In this document: positions 8,000 to 15,926 of the stretch, piece by piece
How positions within the stretch are numbered: position 1 is the first letter of the stretch
Layout: each line of letters opens with the position of its first letter
From: Dongia mobilis
GTDB lineage: Bacteria; Pseudomonadota; Alphaproteobacteria; Dongiales; Dongiaceae
DNA: 41,953 nt
Assembly (NCBI RefSeq): GCF_945906275.1
Contig: NZ_CAMDRA010000008.1
Span: forward strand, 1 to 41,953
Reading direction: 5' to 3'
Notes under the pieces: generated by a model
The model's database searches: none
Told to the model about the DNA's origin: nothing
What the model saw: the letters and a program-made list of their open reading frames with translations, nothing else
Program-made: the position numbers and the translations under genes

Positions 8000-8058
8000 G
8001 TTTTCTCCGCCCGCCGTTGATGGTTGCTGCCAAAACCAGATAGATAGTGTGAGTGAGA

Positions 8059-8087
8059 TTGACAGCAGGTAAATAAGATCGGGTAAA
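8059..8087 (+). promoter_or_regulatory. Possible promoter for the cobU leader
   Basis: A consensus -35 box TTGACA (8059-8064) is followed after 17 bp by GGTAAA, which matches only part of the -10 consensus. If used, transcription would start near 8095 and give a leader of about 340 bases containing the riboswitch. The -35 is good and the -10 weak, so this is only a candidate. Confidence 0.25.
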
Positions 8088-8097
8088 CATTATGACA

Positions 8098-8122
8098 GTA
8101 GATCACACTATAGTGTAACTAC
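8098..8122. repeat. Interrupted palindrome upstream of the riboswitch
   Basis: The core ACACTATAGTGT (8105-8116) is a perfect 12-bp palindrome, flanked by GTAG (8098-8101) and CTAC (8119-8122), which also pair. It lies in the divergent spacer between the histidine kinase and the cobalamin operon and could be an operator for either. No protein can be assigned. Confidence 0.4.
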
Positions 8123-8199
8123 TCGATTATTCCATTTTGACGGGCCCGGTTTGATAGCGTCCGCGGGGCAAAACCTTGCTGGCAATGCCGCATGGCTTT

Positions 8200-8392
8200 G
8201 GCTAGGTTGACGCCCGATCGCAGTGAGGGAAGCCGGTCAACCGTGGCGACACAGTGATTCCGGCGCTGCCCCCGCAACTGTAGGACCGTTGTCTCAATAT
8301 TGGGTTGGGGCACCATGGGTTAGGGCCACTGGCTGGCGACAGCTGGGAAGGCGACCCGATGGATCGGTCGAGCCAGGAAACCTCGGCGATCG
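8200..8392 (+). ncRNA. Cobalamin riboswitch
   Basis: Conserved elements occur in the right order: GGTTGAC (8205-8211), GAGGGAAGCCGGT (8225-8237), the invariant core GCGCTGCCCCCGCAACTGT (8263-8281), GCCACTG (8325-8331), GGGAAGGC (8345-8352) and the B12 box GAGCCAGGAAACCTCGG (8370-8386). CGATCG at 8215-8220 and 8387-8392 may pair to close the structure. Adenosylcobalamin binding normally lowers expression of the downstream genes, here cobU-cobW-cobN-cobO-cobQ. Just after the aptamer, ACCTC (8409-8413) can pair with GAGGT (8419-8423) around the ribosome site, which points to control of translation rather than termination; no U-tract terminator is visible. The ends are approximate. Confidence 0.93.
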
Positions 8393-8408
8393 TTCGATTT
8401 CGGCAACG

Positions 8409-8423
8409 ACCTCGGAGGGAGGT
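8409..8423 (+). promoter_or_regulatory. Hairpin enclosing the cobU ribosome binding site
   Basis: ACCTC (8409-8413) and GAGGT (8419-8423) form a 5-bp stem with loop GGAGG. The GGAGGGAGG Shine-Dalgarno tract for cobU is therefore held in the loop and stem. It starts 17 bases after the riboswitch and probably forms when cobalamin is bound. The pairing is visible; the switching mechanism is inferred. Confidence 0.5.
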
Positions 8424-8433
8424 GCGCGTCATC

Positions 8434-8994
8434 TTGTCTACGCAACCCTTGTTGGGCACCGGCCTATCCGGTTTGATCACCCCGCTCCCCGCCATCACCC
8501 TGGTGCTGGGCGGCGCGCGTTCGGGCAAAAGCCGCTATGCGGAAGAGCTGCTCGACCGCCATACCGGGGCCCGCACCTATCTCGCCACCGCCGAGATCCG
8601 CGACGCCGAAATGGCCGAGCGGGTGAAGCTGCATCGTGACCGGCGCGATCCCGATTGGCGCCTCGTCGAGGAGCCGCTGGCCCTCGCCCAGACATTGGTG
8701 TCGGAAACAGAGAAGGGCGCGGCGGTCCTGGTGGATTGCCTGACACTCTGGCTGACCAATGTGATGCTGGCGGAGCGCGATGTGGTGGCGGAATGCACCG
8801 CCCTCGAACAGGCGCTCGGCCAATGCGGCGGACCGATCATCTTCGTCGCCAATGAAGTGGGCCTCGGTATCGTGCCCGACAACAAACTGGCGCGTGATTT
8901 CCGCGACCATGCCGGGCGGCTCAACCAGCGCCTGGCGGCCCGCGCTGATCATGTGCTGTTCGTGGCGGCTGGCCTGCCGCTCATTCTGAAATAA
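8434..8994 (+). CDS. cobU: Adenosylcobinamide kinase / adenosylcobinamide-phosphate guanylyltransferase
   Basis: This bifunctional enzyme (CobU in Salmonella, CobP in Pseudomonas) phosphorylates adenosylcobinamide and then adds GMP from GTP, preparing the lower-loop attachment. The 186-aa product carries the P-loop LVLGGARSGKSRYAEELL, the TYLATAEIRDAEMAERV segment, HRDRRDPDWRLVEEP with the guanylylated-His region, VDCLTLWLTN, and FVANEVGLGIVPDNKLARDFRD. A TTG at 8434 is chosen as the start: it follows the GGAGGGAGG tract by about 11 bases, and no ATG or GTG in frame is better placed. A TTG at 8473 would give a shorter protein with a weaker site. It is first in the riboswitch operon; cobW follows after 36 bp. 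Confidence 0.93.
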   Translation: MSTQPLLGTGLSGLITPLPAITLVLGGARSGKSRYAEELLDRHTGARTYLATAEIRDAEMAERVKLHRDRRDPDWRLVEEPLALAQTLVSETEKGAAVLVDCLTLWLTNVMLAERDVVAECTALEQALGQCGGPIIFVANEVGLGIVPDNKLARDFRDHAGRLNQRLAARADHVLFVAAGLPLILK

Positions 8995-9030
8995 CGACGC
9001 GAACGCGCGTCAGCCGATTAAGGAAACATC

Positions 9031-10101
9031 ATGTCAATCACAACAGCAAAGACCGGTGGCAAAATTCCCGCCACCATCGTCACCGGGTTCCTGGGTGCTG
9101 GCAAGACCAGCCTCATCCAGCATCTCCTGAAGAATGCCGGCGGCAAGCGTCTGGCACTCATCATCAACGAGTTTGGCGAGCTCGGCGTCGATGGCGAAAT
9201 CGTGAAGGGCTGCAAGATCGAAGGCTGCCCGGAGGAGAACATTGTCGAATTGGCCAATGGCTGTATCTGCTGCACGGTGGCCGACGATTTCCTGCCCACC
9301 ATCAAGGCGCTGCTCGACCGCCCCAACGCACCCGATCACATCATCATCGAAACCTCCGGCCTCGCTTTGCCCAAGCCGCTGGTGAAGGCCTTCAACTGGC
9401 CGGAAATCCGCACCCGCGTCACCGTCGACGGCGTCATCGCCGTGGTCGATGGTCCGGCGGTGGCGGCGGGTCGCTTTGCCGACAACCCGGCAGCGGTCGA
9501 CAACCAGCGGAAGATGGATGACGGGCTCGATCATGACAGCCCCTTGGCCGAACTGTTCGAAGACCAGATCAATTGCGCCGATCTCATCATCGTCAACAAG
9601 GCCGACCAGATGTCCGGGGCCGAGCATGAATCGGCGCAAGCCCATATCATCAAGGAATTGCAGCGCCCGGCGAAGATGATCACCGCGCGCTTCGGCGAGG
9701 TAGACCCCCGCGTGCTGCTGGGGTTGGATGCCGCCGCCGAAGATGATCTTGCGGCGCGCCATTCGCATCACGAACTGGAAGGCGAGGATCACAATCACGA
9801 CGATTTCGAAAGCTTCCACATCGACATCGCCGAGTTGGCGGCGCCGCAGGACCTGCTGGCAAAACTCGGCCCCGTGATCGAACAGCATGACATCCTGCGC
9901 GTGAAGGGCTTCCTCGCGGTGGCCGGCAAGGACATGCGCCTGGTGCTGCAAGGCGTCGGCAACCGCCTGCAGCATTATTACGACCGTGCCTGGGAAGCGT
10001 CGGAAGGCCGCCGCGGCCAGATCGTCATCATCGGCCTGCATGGTCTCGACCGCGCCGCCATCACGGCAGCTCTCTCAACGCCGCTCGGCAAAGCCGCCTG
10101 A
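9031..10101 (+). CDS. cobW: CobW, COG0523 GTPase of cobalamin synthesis
   Basis: This 356-aa G3E-family GTPase is thought to deliver cobalt to the CobNST chelatase. It shows Walker A GFLGAGKTSLIQHLL, the metal-binding CICC within ANGCICCTVADDF, a Walker B/switch region IIIETSGLALPKPL, and the guanine-binding NKAD. A His/Asp/Glu-rich loop, HSHHELEGEDHNHDDF, could store or present metal. The C-terminal CobW_C domain includes ILRVKGFLAVAGKDMRLVLQGVG. It lies between cobU and cobN, only 3 bp from cobN, which is the classical aerobic-pathway arrangement. Start ATG 9031 has AAGGAAAC upstream. Distinction from ZinT/YeiR-type relatives rests on this context. Confidence 0.95.
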   Translation: MSITTAKTGGKIPATIVTGFLGAGKTSLIQHLLKNAGGKRLALIINEFGELGVDGEIVKGCKIEGCPEENIVELANGCICCTVADDFLPTIKALLDRPNAPDHIIIETSGLALPKPLVKAFNWPEIRTRVTVDGVIAVVDGPAVAAGRFADNPAAVDNQRKMDDGLDHDSPLAELFEDQINCADLIIVNKADQMSGAEHESAQAHIIKELQRPAKMITARFGEVDPRVLLGLDAAAEDDLAARHSHHELEGEDHNHDDFESFHIDIAELAAPQDLLAKLGPVIEQHDILRVKGFLAVAGKDMRLVLQGVGNRLQHYYDRAWEASEGRRGQIVIIGLHGLDRAAITAALSTPLGKAA

Positions 10102-10104
10102 TCC

Positions 10105-13100
10105 ATGCATCTCCTCGCCGCCAAACCAGGAACCATCAGCGACGGCGGCGAGGCCGTAGATCTCGGCCAGTCACCGGCCGAGATCGTGGTGCTGAGTGCG
10201 GCCGATACGGAGCTGGCGGCGCTCGCTGCGGCGCATGCGGCGTTGCCCGAACCCAAGCCGACCTTGCGTCTCGTCAACCTGCTGCAGCTGCAGCACAACA
10301 TGTCGGTCGATCTCTATCTTGACCAGGTGATTGCCGACCCCAGATCGCCCGCCAGGCTGGTGATCCTGCGTCTCATCGGCGGCGAACGCTATTGGCCCTA
10401 CGGCGTCGAGCAATTGGCGGCGATCACCGCCGCCCATCATATCCAGTTCGCCTGTCTATCGGGCGACGATCAGCCCGACAGCGAATTGTCGCGCCGCTCA
10501 ACCATAGATGACGAAGCAGCCCACCGCCTGTGGCAGTTCCAGGTCCATGGTGGCCAAAGCAATGCCGAAGAATTTCTGAACTATGCCGCCAGTCTCATCG
10601 GCTATGACACGGTCTGGCAGGAACCACGGCCCTTGCTGCGCGCCGGCCTCTATTGGCCGGGCGCCTCGGTGCTCAGTCTTACCGATCTCACGCCGCATTG
10701 GCAGGAAGGCGCACCGGTCGCCGGCATTGTCTTCTACCGGGCCCTCCTGCAGGCGGGCACGCTGGCGCCGATCGATGCCCTGATCAAAGCCTTGGCCGCG
10801 CGCGGCCTCAACCCGCTGCCGATCTTCGTCAACTCCTTGAAGGAAGCGGTGGCGGCCGATCTCATCCGCGCGCTTTACGCCGAGGCGTCGCCCGACATCA
10901 CCCTCAACTGCACCGGCTTTGCCATCTCGCAGCCGGGTGCGGTTAATTTCTCGACGCCGTTCGACGGCGCCGATCATCCCGTGCTGCAGGTCATGCTGTC
11001 GAGCGAAAGCGAGGCGCAATGGCAAACCAGCCTGCGCGGCCTCAGCCCGCGCGATCTCGCCATGCAGGTGGCGCTGCCGGAACTGGATGGTCGCATCATC
11101 ACCCGTGCCATCTCCTGGAAATCGGCAGCGCGCTATGACGAGGCGACGCAATGCACCATCGTGGCGCCGCAGCCGGTCGCGGACCGCGTGGACTTCACTG
11201 CCGATCTCGCCGCCAATTGGGTGAAACTGCGCCGGACAACTGCGCCCGACCGGCACGTGGCCCTGATCCTCGCCAATTATCCCAACCGCGATGGCCGCAT
11301 CGGCAATGGTGTCGGCCTCGACACGCCAGCCGGCACGATCGAAGTGCTGCGTGCGATGCAGGGCGCTGACTATGGAGTCGCCGATATACCACAGGACGGC
11401 GAGCAGTTGATGAACCGGCTGCTGGCGCGGCCTGCCGGTGCCTTCCGATTGGAGGGCGCCGATTACGCCGACTTCTTCAGCACCCTGCCGGCCGCGATGC
11501 AGGCCGCAGTCATCACGCGCTGGGGTGCGCCGAAGGACGACCTGCTCTACAGCAACGGCGCCTTCGATCTGCCGCTGATGTCACTGGGCCAGGTCGTGAT
11601 CGGCATTCAGCCGGCGCGCGGTTACAACGTTGATCCCACGACCAGCTATCACGATCCCGACCTCGTTCCGCCGCATGGCTACTTCGCCTTCTACGCGTTC
11701 CTGCGGCGGCAATTCGGCGCGCATGTGATCGTGCATATGGGCAAGCATGGCAATCTCGAATGGCTGCCGGGGAAGTCGCTGGCGCTCTCGGCGGATTGTT
11801 ATCCCGAGGCGATCTTCGGCCCTCTGCCGCATCTCTATCCCTTCATCGTCAATGATCCCGGCGAAGGCGCGCAGGCCAAGCGCCGCGCCCAAGCCGTCAT
11901 CATCGATCACATGACGCCGCCGCTCACCCGTGCCGAAAGCTACGGCCCGCTGCGCGATCTCGAACGCCTGGTCGATGAATATTTCGAGGCGAGCCAGGTC
12001 GACCCTAGGCGGTGCCTCGATCTCAAACGACAGATCCTGGATCTCGCCATGTCCAGCGGCCTTGCCGCCGATTGCGGCGTGCTGCCGACCGACGATACCG
12101 ATGCGGCCCTCGCCAAGCTCGACAATCATCTCTGCGAGTTGAAAGAGGCGCAGATCCGCGACGGCCTGCACATCTTCGGGAAGGCGCCGGAAGGTGCCAT
12201 GCTCGACGAATTGCTGGTGGCCTTGACGCGCCTGCCGCGCGGCAAGGGCGAGGGCCGCAGCCAATCATTGATCCGCGCCCTCGCCGCAGACCTTGACCTC
12301 GGCCTCGATTTCGATCCGCTGAACACGAAGCTGGGCGACCCGTGGAGCGGCCCCAAGCCCGCCGCCTTGCAGAAGATCAGCGACGATTCGTGGCGCCTGC
12401 ACGGCGACACGGTCGAGCGGCTGGAAATCCTGGCACTGGGTCTTGTCTCCGGAGCCCACGTCATTTCGGCCGACTGGCCGCGCACCCGCGATGTGCTGAG
12501 CTTCATCGACGAAGATCTGCGGCCCCGCGTCGCCGGCTGTGGCCCGGCCGAGATCAACGCCATCCTGCGCGGCCTCGATGGCCGCTTCATCGCCCCCGGC
12601 CCCTCCGGCGCACCGACCCGCGGTCGCCTTGATGTGCTGCCCACGGGCCGCAATTTCTATTCGGTCGACACGCGTTCCGTGCCGACGCCGACCGCCTGGG
12701 CGCTGGGCTGGCAATCAGCGTTGCTGGTGCTTGACCGCCACCGCCAGGAACACGGTGCCTGGCCCAAGGCCATCGTGCTCTCCGCCTGGGGCACCGCCAA
12801 TATGCGCACGGGGGGTGACGACATCGCCCAGGCCTTGGCGCTGATGGGTGTGAAGCCGACCTGGGATCCCGGCGGATCTGGTCGCGTCGCCGGTTTCGAA
12901 ATCCTGCCGCTCTCGGTGCTCGATCGGCCGCGTGTCGACGTTACCCTGCGAGTCTCCGGTTTCTTCCGCGATGCCTTCCCGGCACAGATCGACCTTTTCG
13001 ATTCCGCCGCGCGCGACGTCGCAGCCCTCGACGAGCCGGACCATCTCAATCCCCTGGTTGCCCGCGTGCGGAGCGAACGCCAATCCTTGATGGCCGACGG

Positions 13101-13842
13101 CATGTCCGATATCGACGCCACGCGCCGCGCTGGCTACCGCGTGTTCGGCTCGAAGCCGGGGGCCTATGGCGCCGGACTGCAGTCGCTCATCGACGAAAAG
13201 GGCTGGACCGAAACCGGTGATCTCGCGCGCGCCTATCTCGCCTGGGGCGGCTATGCCTATGGCCAGGGCTCCAGCGGCGAAGCGCAGCAGCAGTTGTTTG
13301 CGCAGCGTCTCACGGGCGTCGAGGCGGTCTTGCATAACCAGGACAATGCCGAGCACGACATTCTCGACAGCGACAATTACTACCAGTTCGAAGGTGGCCT
13401 CGCCGCTACCATCAAACACCTCACGGGCAAGCGCGCCGTGGTTTGGCACAACGACCATTCGCGGCCCGAGGCGCCCAAGGTGCGGGCGCTGGACGAAGAG
13501 ATCGCCCGCATCGTCCGCGCCCGCGTCGTCAATCCGAAATGGATCAGCGGCATCATGCGCCACGGCTATAAGGGCGGCTTCGAACTTGCCGCGACGGTCG
13601 ATTATCTGTTCGCCTTTGCCGCCACCGCGGATTGCGTGGCGGATCATCATTTCGACGCGGTCTTCGACGCCTATCTGGTCGATGACGAGGTCCGCGCCTT
13701 TCTCGAGCGGCACAATCCGGCGGCCCTCAAGGATATCGCCGACCGGCTGTTGGAGGCGCAGACGCGCGGCCTGTGGCAGGCAAAATCAAACTCGGCCGGC
13801 ATGCAGCTGCATGCCTGGGCGAAAGGGAGTGAAGCAGCATGA
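10105..13842 (+). CDS. cobN: Cobaltochelatase large subunit CobN
   Basis: CobN is the porphyrinoid-binding subunit of the ATP-dependent CobNST complex, which inserts Co(II) into hydrogenobyrinic acid a,c-diamide. The 1245-aa length is normal. Recognisable segments include LILANYPNRDGRIGNGVGLD, HVIVHMGKHGNLEWLPGKS, HLYPFIVNDPGEGAQAKRR, YEATIKHLTG-type text near YYQFEGGLAATIKHLTG, and PKWISGIMRHGYKGGFELAA close to the C-terminus. These are shared with magnesium chelatase H subunits, but the operon with cobW and cobO identifies CobN. The ATPase partners CobS and CobT are not in the window; they commonly sit elsewhere in Alphaproteobacteria. It overlaps cobO by 4 bp (ATGA). Confidence 0.97.
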   Translation: MHLLAAKPGTISDGGEAVDLGQSPAEIVVLSAADTELAALAAAHAALPEPKPTLRLVNLLQLQHNMSVDLYLDQVIADPRSPARLVILRLIGGERYWPYGVEQLAAITAAHHIQFACLSGDDQPDSELSRRSTIDDEAAHRLWQFQVHGGQSNAEEFLNYAASLIGYDTVWQEPRPLLRAGLYWPGASVLSLTDLTPHWQEGAPVAGIVFYRALLQAGTLAPIDALIKALAARGLNPLPIFVNSLKEAVAADLIRALYAEASPDITLNCTGFAISQPGAVNFSTPFDGADHPVLQVMLSSESEAQWQTSLRGLSPRDLAMQVALPELDGRIITRAISWKSAARYDEATQCTIVAPQPVADRVDFTADLAANWVKLRRTTAPDRHVALILANYPNRDGRIGNGVGLDTPAGTIEVLRAMQGADYGVADIPQDGEQLMNRLLARPAGAFRLEGADYADFFSTLPAAMQAAVITRWGAPKDDLLYSNGAFDLPLMSLGQVVIGIQPARGYNVDPTTSYHDPDLVPPHGYFAFYAFLRRQFGAHVIVHMGKHGNLEWLPGKSLALSADCYPEAIFGPLPHLYPFIVNDPGEGAQAKRRAQAVIIDHMTPPLTRAESYGPLRDLERLVDEYFEASQVDPRRCLDLKRQILDLAMSSGLAADCGVLPTDDTDAALAKLDNHLCELKEAQIRDGLHIFGKAPEGAMLDELLVALTRLPRGKGEGRSQSLIRALAADLDLGLDFDPLNTKLGDPWSGPKPAALQKISDDSWRLHGDTVERLEILALGLVSGAHVISADWPRTRDVLSFIDEDLRPRVAGCGPAEINAILRGLDGRFIAPGPSGAPTRGRLDVLPTGRNFYSVDTRSVPTPTAWALGWQSALLVLDRHRQEHGAWPKAIVLSAWGTANMRTGGDDIAQALALMGVKPTWDPGGSGRVAGFEILPLSVLDRPRVDVTLRVSGFFRDAFPAQIDLFDSAARDVAALDEPDHLNPLVARVRSERQSLMADGMSDIDATRRAGYRVFGSKPGAYGAGLQSLIDEKGWTETGDLARAYLAWGGYAYGQGSSGEAQQQLFAQRLTGVEAVLHNQDNAEHDILDSDNYYQFEGGLAATIKHLTGKRAVVWHNDHSRPEAPKVRALDEEIARIVRARVVNPKWISGIMRHGYKGGFELAATVDYLFAFAATADCVADHHFDAVFDAYLVDDEVRAFLERHNPAALKDIADRLLEAQTRGLWQAKSNSAGMQLHAWAKGSEAA

Positions 13843-14459
13843 CCGAGCAACTTGAGACCGACGATTCAAACCAGCGCGCCAATGAAAAGGCTGCCCGCCG
13901 CAAGGAAGCCCGCGACCGCATGATGGCAGAGAAGACCCGCGAGAAGGGCCTCATCATCGTCAACACCGGCAAGGGCAAGGGCAAATCCACCGCCGCCTTC
14001 GGCATGGTCATGCGCTGCATCGGCCATGGCATGAAGGTGGGCGTCATCCAGTTCATCAAGGGGAAATGGGATACCGGCGAACGCACAGTCCTTGAACGCT
14101 TCCCGGACCAGATCGAGATCAAGGCTCTCGGCGAAGGTTTCACCTGGGAAACCCAGGACCGCGCCCGCGACATCGCCTTCGCCCGCGCCGCCTGGGAAGA
14201 AGGCAAACGCATGATGCTTGATCCCAGCTTCCAGTTCGTTCTGATGGACGAGATCAACATTGCGCTCCGCTACGACTACCTCCCGATCGAGGAGGTGGTC
14301 GAGTTCCTCAAAAACAAGCGGCCTGACCTTCATGTCTGCGTCACCGGGCGCAACGCCAAGGAAGAGATCATCGCCATCGCCGACCTGGTGACCGAGATGG
14401 AAATGATCAAACACCCGTTCCGCGATGGGGTGAAGGCGCAGGCCGGGATTGAGTTCTAG
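13839..14459 (+). CDS. cobO: Cob(I)yrinic acid a,c-diamide adenosyltransferase
   Basis: This 206-aa CobO/BtuR/CobA-type corrinoid adenosyltransferase transfers the adenosyl group of ATP to Co(I). The P-loop is NTGKGKGKSTAAFGMVMRC (about residues 42-60), followed by VIQFIKGKWDTGER, LGEGFTWETQDRARD, VLMDEINIALRYDYLPIEEV and CVTGRNAKEEIIAIADLVTEM. The charged N-terminal 35 residues (NEKAARRKEARDRMMAEKTR) are typical of the family and may cap the active site. Translation is probably coupled to cobN through an ATGA overlap, and cobQ follows after 3 bp. The symbol cobO avoids confusion with the SUMT gene cobA at 21179. Confidence 0.96.
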   Translation: MTEQLETDDSNQRANEKAARRKEARDRMMAEKTREKGLIIVNTGKGKGKSTAAFGMVMRCIGHGMKVGVIQFIKGKWDTGERTVLERFPDQIEIKALGEGFTWETQDRARDIAFARAAWEEGKRMMLDPSFQFVLMDEINIALRYDYLPIEEVVEFLKNKRPDLHVCVTGRNAKEEIIAIADLVTEMEMIKHPFRDGVKAQAGIEF

Positions 14460-14462
14460 TCT

Positions 14463-15926
14463 GTGAAAACTGCCCCCACCCTCATGTTCCAGGGCACCGG
14501 CTCCGACGTCGGCAAATCGATGATCGTCGCGGGCCTCGCCCGTGCCTTCACCAATCGCGGTCTCAAGGTGCGGCCGTTCAAGCCACAGAACATGTCGAAC
14601 AACGCCGCCGTCACCGCCGATGGCGGGGAGATCGGCCGCGCCCAGGCGCTCCAGGCGCGAGCAGCCCGGGTGGCAAGCTCGGTGCATATGAACCCGGTAC
14701 TCCTGAAACCGCAAAGCGATGTCGGCTCCCAGGTCATCGTACAGGGCAGGATCTTCGGCAACGCCAAGGCCGCCGATTATCACCGGCTGAAGCCGCAATT
14801 GCTGCATTCCGTTCTCGACAGCTACCGGCATCTGGCGGATGAAGCTGATCTGGTCCTGGTCGAAGGGGCAGGATCACCCGCCGAAATCAATCTCCGCGCC
14901 GGCGACATCGCCAATATGGGCTTTGCCGAGGCGGCCGACATTCCCGTGGTGCTGGTGGGCGACATCGACCGCGGCGGCGTCATCGCCAGCATCGTCGGTA
15001 CCCTGCAATTGCTGGCACCGGCAGAGGCTGCGCGCATCAAGGGTTTTCTCATCAACAAATTCCGCGGCGATCCCGCGCTCTTTGCCGACGGCATGAAACT
15101 GATAGCCGACAGGACCGGCCTTGCAGCTCTTGGCCTGATACCCTGGTTCGCCGGTGCCGACCGCCTGCCACCGGAAGATGCCGTGGCGCTCGACAGCTAC
15201 CGAGTCAACACCAAGGCGCCGATCAAGATCGTGGTGCCGCAATTGCCGCGGATCTCGAATTTCGACGATCTCGACCCCTTGCGTGCCGAACCCGATGTCA
15301 GCGTCGAGCTCGTGCGGCCGGGCCGCGCTTTGCCTGGCGACGCCGATCTCATCCTGCTGCCGGGCTCGAAGGCCACCATCGCCGATCTACGCGCCCTCTA
15401 TGACACCGGCTGGGATATCGACATTCGCGCTCATCACCGCCGCGGCGGTGCCGTCCTCGGCCTGTGCGGCGGTTATCAGATGCTGGGCAAGCGCGTCGAG
15501 GATCCCGGCGGCATCGAGGGGCCCAAGGGTGGCATCGATGGCCTGGGCCTGCTCGATATCGTCACGACCCTCACCGCCGATAAATCCCTCATCGAGGTTC
15601 GCGCCCGCGCCGCCGGTCACGACATTCACGGCTATGAAATGCATGTGGGCGTCAGCGAAGGTGCCGATTGCGCGCGGCCGTTCCTCACCATCGGCAACCG
15701 CCCGGACGGCGCGGTTTCAGCGGATGAACGCGTCATGGGCTGCTACGTTCACGGCCTCTTCGCCGCAGATGCCTTCCGCCACGCGTTCCTTTCCGGGCTG
15801 CGCCCGCGAGCGGAAACCGGCATCGCCTATGAGCAGGGCGTCGAACAGGCCCTCGATGATCTGGCAGCGCATCTTGAGCGCCATGCGAATCTCGATGCCA
15901 TGCTGAAGATTGCAGGTCAAAAATGA
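14463..15926 (+). CDS. cobQ: Cobyric acid synthase
   Basis: This 487-aa glutamine-dependent amidotransferase converts adenosylcobyrinic acid a,c-diamide to adenosylcobyric acid by four amidations. The N-terminal ATPase domain has [20 protein letters not shown], the [11 protein letters not shown] motif, and [14 protein letters not shown]. The C-terminal triad-type glutaminase domain has [15 protein letters not shown] (catalytic Cys) and [14 protein letters not shown] (His). The start is a GTG at 14463, with the conserved [18 protein letters not shown] immediately after it. It is last in the riboswitch operon. A large nested palindrome begins at its stop codon and probably separates it from the convergent cobD. 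Confidence 0.96.

Follow-up and report, generated by a model that had tools for sequence, protein, structure and literature searches.

The window, meaning the whole stretch of 41,953 nucleotides analysed here, is judged with a probability of roughly 0.85 to contain a compact, repressing cobalamin riboswitch that controls the translation of cobU and probably of the four genes behind it as well, control of translation being the likeliest mode. A covariance search of the whole window, run at gathering scores, identified a single RNA match, to RF00174, at positions 8226-8383 of the forward strand (69.5 bits against a gathering score of 31.5, E 2.9e-15). This bore out the proposal of a cobalamin riboswitch made in an earlier sequence-only reading; from its sequence the element is a real cobalamin riboswitch of an ordinary kind, for which binding of cobalamin is predicted. 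The following parts of the aptamer were identified:

8215-8392, forward strand: compact cobalamin aptamer from P1 to P1' (the RF00174 match plus the covarying P1)
8215-8221, forward strand: 5' strand of P1, CGATCGC, pairing with 8386-8392
8232-8264, forward strand: P3 hairpin by the RF00174 alignment (stem 8232-8236/8260-8264, 23-nucleotide loop 8237-8259)
8269-8274, forward strand: C-rich loop L5, CCCCCG, the proposed partner of L13, invariant in 17 of 17 family members
8371-8383, forward strand: B12 box AGCCAGGAAACCT, read from the sequence and lying within the RF00174 match
8386-8392, forward strand: 3' strand of P1, GCGATCG, pairing with 8215-8221

The main comparison set consisted of the 17 genomes returned by a search of the family, including the window's own genome of 3.72 Mb (a search of the order returned the same number, G000-G016). 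Each of these was found to have an RF00174 match, with a copy scoring 47.7-92.8 bits situated directly before cobU. Two wider sets were used in addition. The first was picked by motif and holds 96 distinct sequences including those of the family, 71 of them before cobU and 25 not. The second was assembled independently of the motif, by a cobU protein search in 153 genomes of the class, 70 of which gave a match; 69 loci were read, the weak cobU match of G155 not being among them, and 18 of these 69 had a riboswitch upstream in the same direction (of 24 RF00174 matches, 6 were excluded for a position behind cobU or an opposite orientation).

The match in the window spans model positions 45-169 of 189, with the P2 hairpin and the full-length 5' domain (model positions 1-44) absent from it. 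Between P1 and the AGG of P2 there are only 4 nucleotides (AGTG), and this lack of a P2 hairpin agrees with a truncated match of lower score. We take the 5' domain to be optional for membership of RF00174, because the cut-off was passed without it and several relatives of the same layout were aligned over positions 1-189. The C-rich L5, a feature of membership, is present within TGCCCCCGCA (8267-8276). The P1 helix falls outside the match and yet covaries in the relatives, in which the same place is occupied by different letters (GTTCGC/GCGAAC, CCAAGC/GCTTGG, GTCCGT/ACGGAC, ATCCGT/ACGGAT, CGTTCGT/ACGAACG and TGGCTGAG/CTCAGCCG); in G002, G003, G005, G015 and G001 the helix has fewer pairs or is not clearly defined, in a comparison that left out G012. 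The P3 pairs have probabilities of about 0.96 in the secondary-structure ensemble, and the P3-like loop is, as had been claimed, longer than usual, with a length that differs widely among family members. The folding energy of the region is ordinary (z -0.10).

Four further copies of RF00174 in this genome (L001-L004) have the aptamer core and a CCCCCG L5 in common with that of the window. They differ from the window copy in matching the model at full length (1-189) with 119.8-137.4 bits, the window copy scoring lower because P1 and P2 of the model do not align. The motif CCTCGGnGGGAGG, which in the window forms part of the hairpin described below, is missing from these four fetched loci.

Downstream of the riboswitch, five genes were found on one strand:

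8434-8994, forward strand: cobU, TTG start placed by alignment with relatives (NF004469, 205.7 bits)
9031-10101, forward strand: cobW (TIGR02475, 541.2 bits)
10105-13842, forward strand: cobN (TIGR02257, 1606.9 bits)
13839-14459, forward strand: cobO, cob(I)yrinic acid a,c-diamide adenosyltransferase (TIGR00708, 227.8 bits)
14463-15926, forward strand: cobQ, GTG start (NF001989, 634 bits)

The gaps between them are 36, 3, -4 and 3 bases, and from five co-directional genes with such short gaps we infer one operon; the run of five genes noted earlier was thus recovered as cobU-cobW-cobN-cobO-cobQ, a context that fits the control of a B12 gene. The TTG at 8434, previously picked as the best start codon, shares an alignment column with the ATG of G006, G003, G002 and G005, which supports this choice at the level of sequence. 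The nearest start codon at 9-15 nucleotides behind GGGAGG is ATG in 14 of the 17 family members (one of which, L051, also has a TTG at 6 nucleotides), TTG in two (the window and G007) and GTG in one.

Between the aptamer and cobU, a short hairpin covers the ribosome site:

8409-8423, forward strand: P13 hairpin, stem ACCT/AGGT (8409-8412/8420-8423), loop L13 CGGAGGG (8413-8419)
8414-8422, forward strand: Shine-Dalgarno region GGAGGGAGG, wholly within L13/P13 and 11 nucleotides before the TTG at 8434

In the sequence, ACCTC (8409-8413) and GAGGT (8419-8423) enclose GGAGGGAGG, and in the ligand-free secondary-structure ensemble this hairpin has a probability of about 0.79 (0.60 for the outermost A-T pair). 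The motif CCTCGGnGGGAGG was found in all 17 family genomes. Among the 96 motif-selected sequences, which bear on the flanks and not on the motif by which they were chosen, and in which related sequences are counted separately, the pair flanking CCTCGGnGGGAGG is a standard one in 84, where independence of the two sides would give 46.5 (T-A in 42, C-G in 17, G-T in 8, A-T in 7, G-C in 6 and T-G in 4). The next pair outward is standard in 60 of the 96 against 43.4 expected, and the third to sixth pairs outward show no excess over expectation in this set. Flanking pairs above expectation argue for a real stem, which in the window is ACCT/AGGT. The earlier claim of a hairpin over the ribosome site is therefore upheld by its presence in the sequence, its retention in all 17 genomes and the covariation of its flank.

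Among the 18 cobU riboswitches that were not picked by motif, 10 have CCTCGGnGGGAGG (3 of these in the window's genus), 5 have CCTCGGGnGGAGG (with T in four and C in one) and 3 have neither (L200, L217 and L243). The downstream part of these last three, being without both forms of the element, represents a different expression platform. A B12 box with CCTCGGnGGGAGG but no CobU motif within about 300 nucleotides downstream was observed at L084, L085, L100, L104, L113, L119, L135, L141, L148, L150 and L153, and the records of this pattern include Xanthobacter, Hansschlegelia and Methylopila. The B12 box and CCTCGGnGGGAGG were also matched in four records titled Lachnospiraceae (two), Clostridiaceae and Bacillota (L080, L103, L118, L149), which are counted within the 96 and may be due to chance, contamination or convergence.

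The hairpin had previously been read as a plain trap for the ribosome site. The hairpin stands, but that reading overlooked the complementarity of its loop to L5 of the aptamer: read from the sequence, L13 (CGGAGGG) can form six pairs with L5 (CCCCCG), leaving one bulged nucleotide, A8416. By analogy, P13/L13 would be the known docking loop of cobalamin riboswitches, and a kissing loop is the likely mechanism. The L5-L13 pairing is supported by complementarity and by the invariance of L5 rather than by covariation, which is absent because L5 hardly varies. According to excerpts of PMC2258182, adenosylcobalamin riboswitches usually depend on a pseudoknot that a C-rich loop forms, in response to the ligand, with a sequence beyond the core. 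For the metE riboswitch of Priestia megaterium, the functional kissing pairs are described in parts of PMC10653944 as CCG of L5 with CGG of L13; L13 in the window begins with the same letters, CGG. Published mutagenesis links the bulge of the kissing helix to ligand dependence, an imperfect helix making docking dependent on the ligand.

The position of the single unpaired nucleotide was compared across the class. A search that required CCTCGG and GGAGG downstream of a B12 box gave 38 matches in 37 of 387 class genomes (six matches from the window's genus), and the two free loop positions between CCTCGG and GGAGG contain exactly one G in all 38 (AG in 16, CG in 4, TG in 1, GT in 8, GC in 6 and GA in 3). 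With the spacing also left free, 31 places were found in 30 of 289 genomes, 29 of them of the kind with one G and one non-G; both departures (G344, CCTCGGCGGAGG; G328, CCTCGGGGAGGAGG) keep one non-G in the G run, and the uninterrupted CCTCGGGGGAGG was not found at any of the 31, the two sets being defined by motif and not by the presence of cobU at each place. GG at NN of CCTCGGNNGGAGG was likewise found in none of the 38 matches and at none of 107 distinct fetched places. For background, 198 occurrences of GGNNGGAGG without a preceding CCTC were counted in the fetched DNA: exactly one of the NN letters is G in 64 of these, both are G in 9, and neither is G in 125. On these figures GG would be expected in about 1.7 of 38, so its absence alone is not significant, and the idea that L13 avoids an unbroken row of Gs was rejected as an explanation, GG being rare anyway. 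What stands out is that no case has two non-G letters, the state of 125 of the 198 background occurrences. A single unpaired nucleotide, together with the published role of the bulge, suggests selection for an imperfect kissing helix. In a tree of 83 CobU proteins, at least 9 changes in the position of the non-G and at least 19 in the dinucleotide were counted, by a quick method with a simple model and in a set rich in the first type, as the earlier loci had been fetched by that motif. Among the papers listed in literature searches, none was recognised by its title or the start of its abstract as dealing with the CCTCGG(nG or Gn)GGAGG element.

It is conceivable that CCTCGGnGGGAGG is only a strong Shine-Dalgarno sequence with its complement, that the match to L5 is incidental and that control is exerted via P1 and an unseen alternative pairing. 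The hairpin folds unaided, a Shine-Dalgarno sequence yields G-rich loops in any case, and L5-L13 is without covariation, all of which would fit. This explanation is nevertheless improbable, as the single G at the free loop positions in every one of the 38 matches departs from the background of GGNNGGAGG, and the published mechanism, so far as the excerpts describe it, requires an L13 loop. The one ensemble computed showed no antisequestor by which the ribosome site could be released in the absence of ligand. The helix TGACGC/GCGTCA, with which the minimum-energy fold closes over the start codon, was dropped, since its inner pairs, judged by eye, are present only in the window and G006.

In the proposed mechanism, the RNA would begin at P1, with transcription from about 8214-8216. 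On filling of the aptamer by cobalamin, L5 (8269-8274) would dock with L13 (8413-8419) through the pairs 8274-8413, 8273-8414, 8272-8415, 8271-8417, 8270-8418 and 8269-8419, with A8416 bulged. Docking would lock P13 (ACCT/AGGT), leaving the whole Shine-Dalgarno region either paired or enclosed. Without ligand, docking would be weak, and the 30S subunit could open the short P13 and initiate at TTG 8434. The scheme is a prediction with respect to ligand binding, docking, the transcript start and the repression of cobU and the downstream genes. Against it, folding alone already forms the hairpin to about 0.79 without ligand, and the ligand may add little or much to repression.

Action of the switch on transcription, by termination or through Rho, in place of translation has precedent in that some cobalamin riboswitches attenuate transcription, according to parts of PMC10653944, and dependence on Rho would be invisible in sequence. 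Such action is very unlikely here, however: no intrinsic-terminator-like site was found on the forward strand at 8000-9100, and P13 covers the Shine-Dalgarno sequence and ends 10 nucleotides ahead of the start codon.

The proposed start of the RNA at P1 follows from two promoter-like elements upstream of the aptamer:

8179-8184, forward strand: -35-like CTGGCA, with a conserved core TGG at 8180-8182
8203-8208, forward strand: -10-like TAGGTT, whose pattern TAnnnT is conserved in the family and beyond

In all 17 family members, TAnnnT precedes the AGGGAA of the aptamer by 20-25 nucleotides (shuffle mean 0.38, maximum 3), and in 16 of the 17 TGG lies exactly 20 nucleotides upstream of TAnnnT (dinucleotide shuffles, mean 0.02, maximum 2). 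Among 60 motif-selected cobU riboswitches outside the family, TAnnnT at 20-26 nucleotides was found in 43 (shuffle mean 3.7, maximum 9) and the TGG part in 15 (mean 1.2, maximum 6); the pattern and distances were chosen after the family alignment and a distance histogram, and kin were counted separately, so that all these shuffle figures make the case look somewhat stronger than it is. The family hexamers are TAGGTT, TAGTTT, TAACGT, TAGCGT, TAGTCT, TAGCTT, TATGGT and TATTTT, with T1, A2 and T6 invariant in 17 of 17. A consensus scan called no sigma-70-type promoter, because the hexamers agree poorly with the E. coli consensus; the two elements were recognised by their conservation. The pattern of conservation is that of a promoter, and a -10 box is probably situated at 8203-8208. 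As transcription begins 6-8 bases past a -10 box, it would set in at about 8214-8216, where P1 has its first base, and the RNA therefore probably begins at P1. In many alphaproteobacterial cobU riboswitches, a -10-like TAnnnT is likewise seen 20-26 nucleotides before AGGGAA, an arrangement by which the RNA would start with P1. Further upstream of the riboswitch promoter, a perfect palindrome of 12 bp, ACACTATAGTGT, was observed at 8105-8116; the six loci of the genus that were compared lack it, and it may be a regulator site or due to chance.

The upstream TAGGTT might instead be an RNA element of the aptamer, either extending P1 outward or pairing with the 3' flank, with no -10 box involved. 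The genus sequence GTTGnCG could pair with CGGCAAC (8401-8407) at 6 of 7 positions in the window and at all seven in G003 and G005, and in G007 and G002 the helix would include a wobble; the middle position is A-G and unpaired in the window, with G-G in G006, T-G in G007 and G002 and C-G in G003 and G005. In addition, TGACGC (8208-8213) can pair with GCGTCA (8426-8431) in the minimum-energy fold of the window. Neither partner is kept across the genus, however (TGACGC/GCGTCA was judged by eye), the middle letters of the hexamer change while its three invariant letters do not, as in a -10 element, and the TGG stands at a fixed distance upstream, so that an RNA role for TAGGTT is rather unlikely. 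The outer P1 extension GTTGnCG/CGGCAAC (8206-8212/8401-8407) was dropped as a candidate, its ensemble probability being 0 and its 5' strand overlapping the -10-like element.

The -10 reading of TAGGTT bears on an extra helix that had been proposed between GGTTGAC (8205-8211) and GTCAACC (8236-8242). The two strands are letter-for-letter complementary, as stated, but as a feature the helix did not hold: it is at the level of chance, is not conserved and overlaps the promoter-like element. At least one 7-bp match was obtained in 77.6% of 500 mononucleotide shuffles of 8200-8440, and the 2 such matches observed there (the other being P1) compare with a shuffled mean of 2.09. G007, the nearest relative (97% identical), has GGTTGTC and GTCAGCT at these places, a combination that gives one mismatch and two wobbles, and CAACC is missing from the P3 loops of the five other genus members. 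On the -10 reading, GGTTGAC is promoter DNA and would therefore be unable to pair in RNA; it is probably not transcribed. The helix was rejected as chance-level, broken in G007 and overlapping the -10-like element.

A plain hairpin trapping the ribosome site, combined with this extra helix from the 5' flank to the P3 loop, accordingly has very little to recommend it as an account of the whole. The seven letters are complementary, GGTTG is found in 6 of 7 genus members, and helices of 7-8 pairs (G-U allowed) from the 5' flank to the loop can be drawn in other registers in G007 and G003, although these are what chance allows. Against this stand the frequency of matches in shuffled sequence, the mismatch in G007 and the loops of the other five members; the conserved GGTTG is explained by the -10-like TAnnnT, a pattern in which the middle letters differ from genus to genus. 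The ensemble probability of the helix (0.02-0.03) says little, as the program allows no pseudoknot and the helix crosses P3. Overall, the observation made in the sequence-only reading was partly confirmed and its interpretation is partly supported.

With the riboswitch read as a compact element repressing translation through P13, comparison can be made with known systems. E. coli btuB and env8 (RF00174, with L5-L13) have in common with the window the B12 box, L5, the core helices and P13 over the ribosome site, according to excerpts on env8 in PMC10907184 and PMC10653944, and from this likeness repression of B12 genes would be expected here too. By the same descriptions the window is set apart by its compact 5' side, with P1 at the inferred transcript start and no P2 hairpin. 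The riboswitches of P. megaterium metE and Alkalihalobacillus halodurans cobT likewise have an L5-L13 kissing loop (parts of PMC10653944), and metE shares the CCG/CGG core of the contact with the window (same excerpts). As portrayed there (PMC10653944), metE and cobT act via transcription terminators, whereas the search of the window for an intrinsic terminator was negative and its P13 contains the Shine-Dalgarno sequence.

The compact form is common to the family and to many other alphaproteobacterial cobU genes, and is a known kind of riboswitch with modest new comparative detail. It may, as a tentative proposal on which we would not yet insist, represent a distinct compact sub-type among alphaproteobacterial cobU riboswitches, with its start at P1, a near-invariant 13-nucleotide CCTCGG(nG or Gn)GGAGG element serving as Shine-Dalgarno sequence, P13 and L13 at once, and one unpaired nucleotide of the kissing helix at either of two neighbouring places. 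If true, the -10-like element would mark the likely 5' end of the compact aptamer sub-type, and the near-fixed Shine-Dalgarno/P13/L13 sequence across many genera would be a natural data set for the tuning of ligand dependence by an unpaired nucleotide. The sub-type would then be an evolutionary signature of the rule derived from mutagenesis, by which an imperfect kissing helix leads to ligand-dependent docking.
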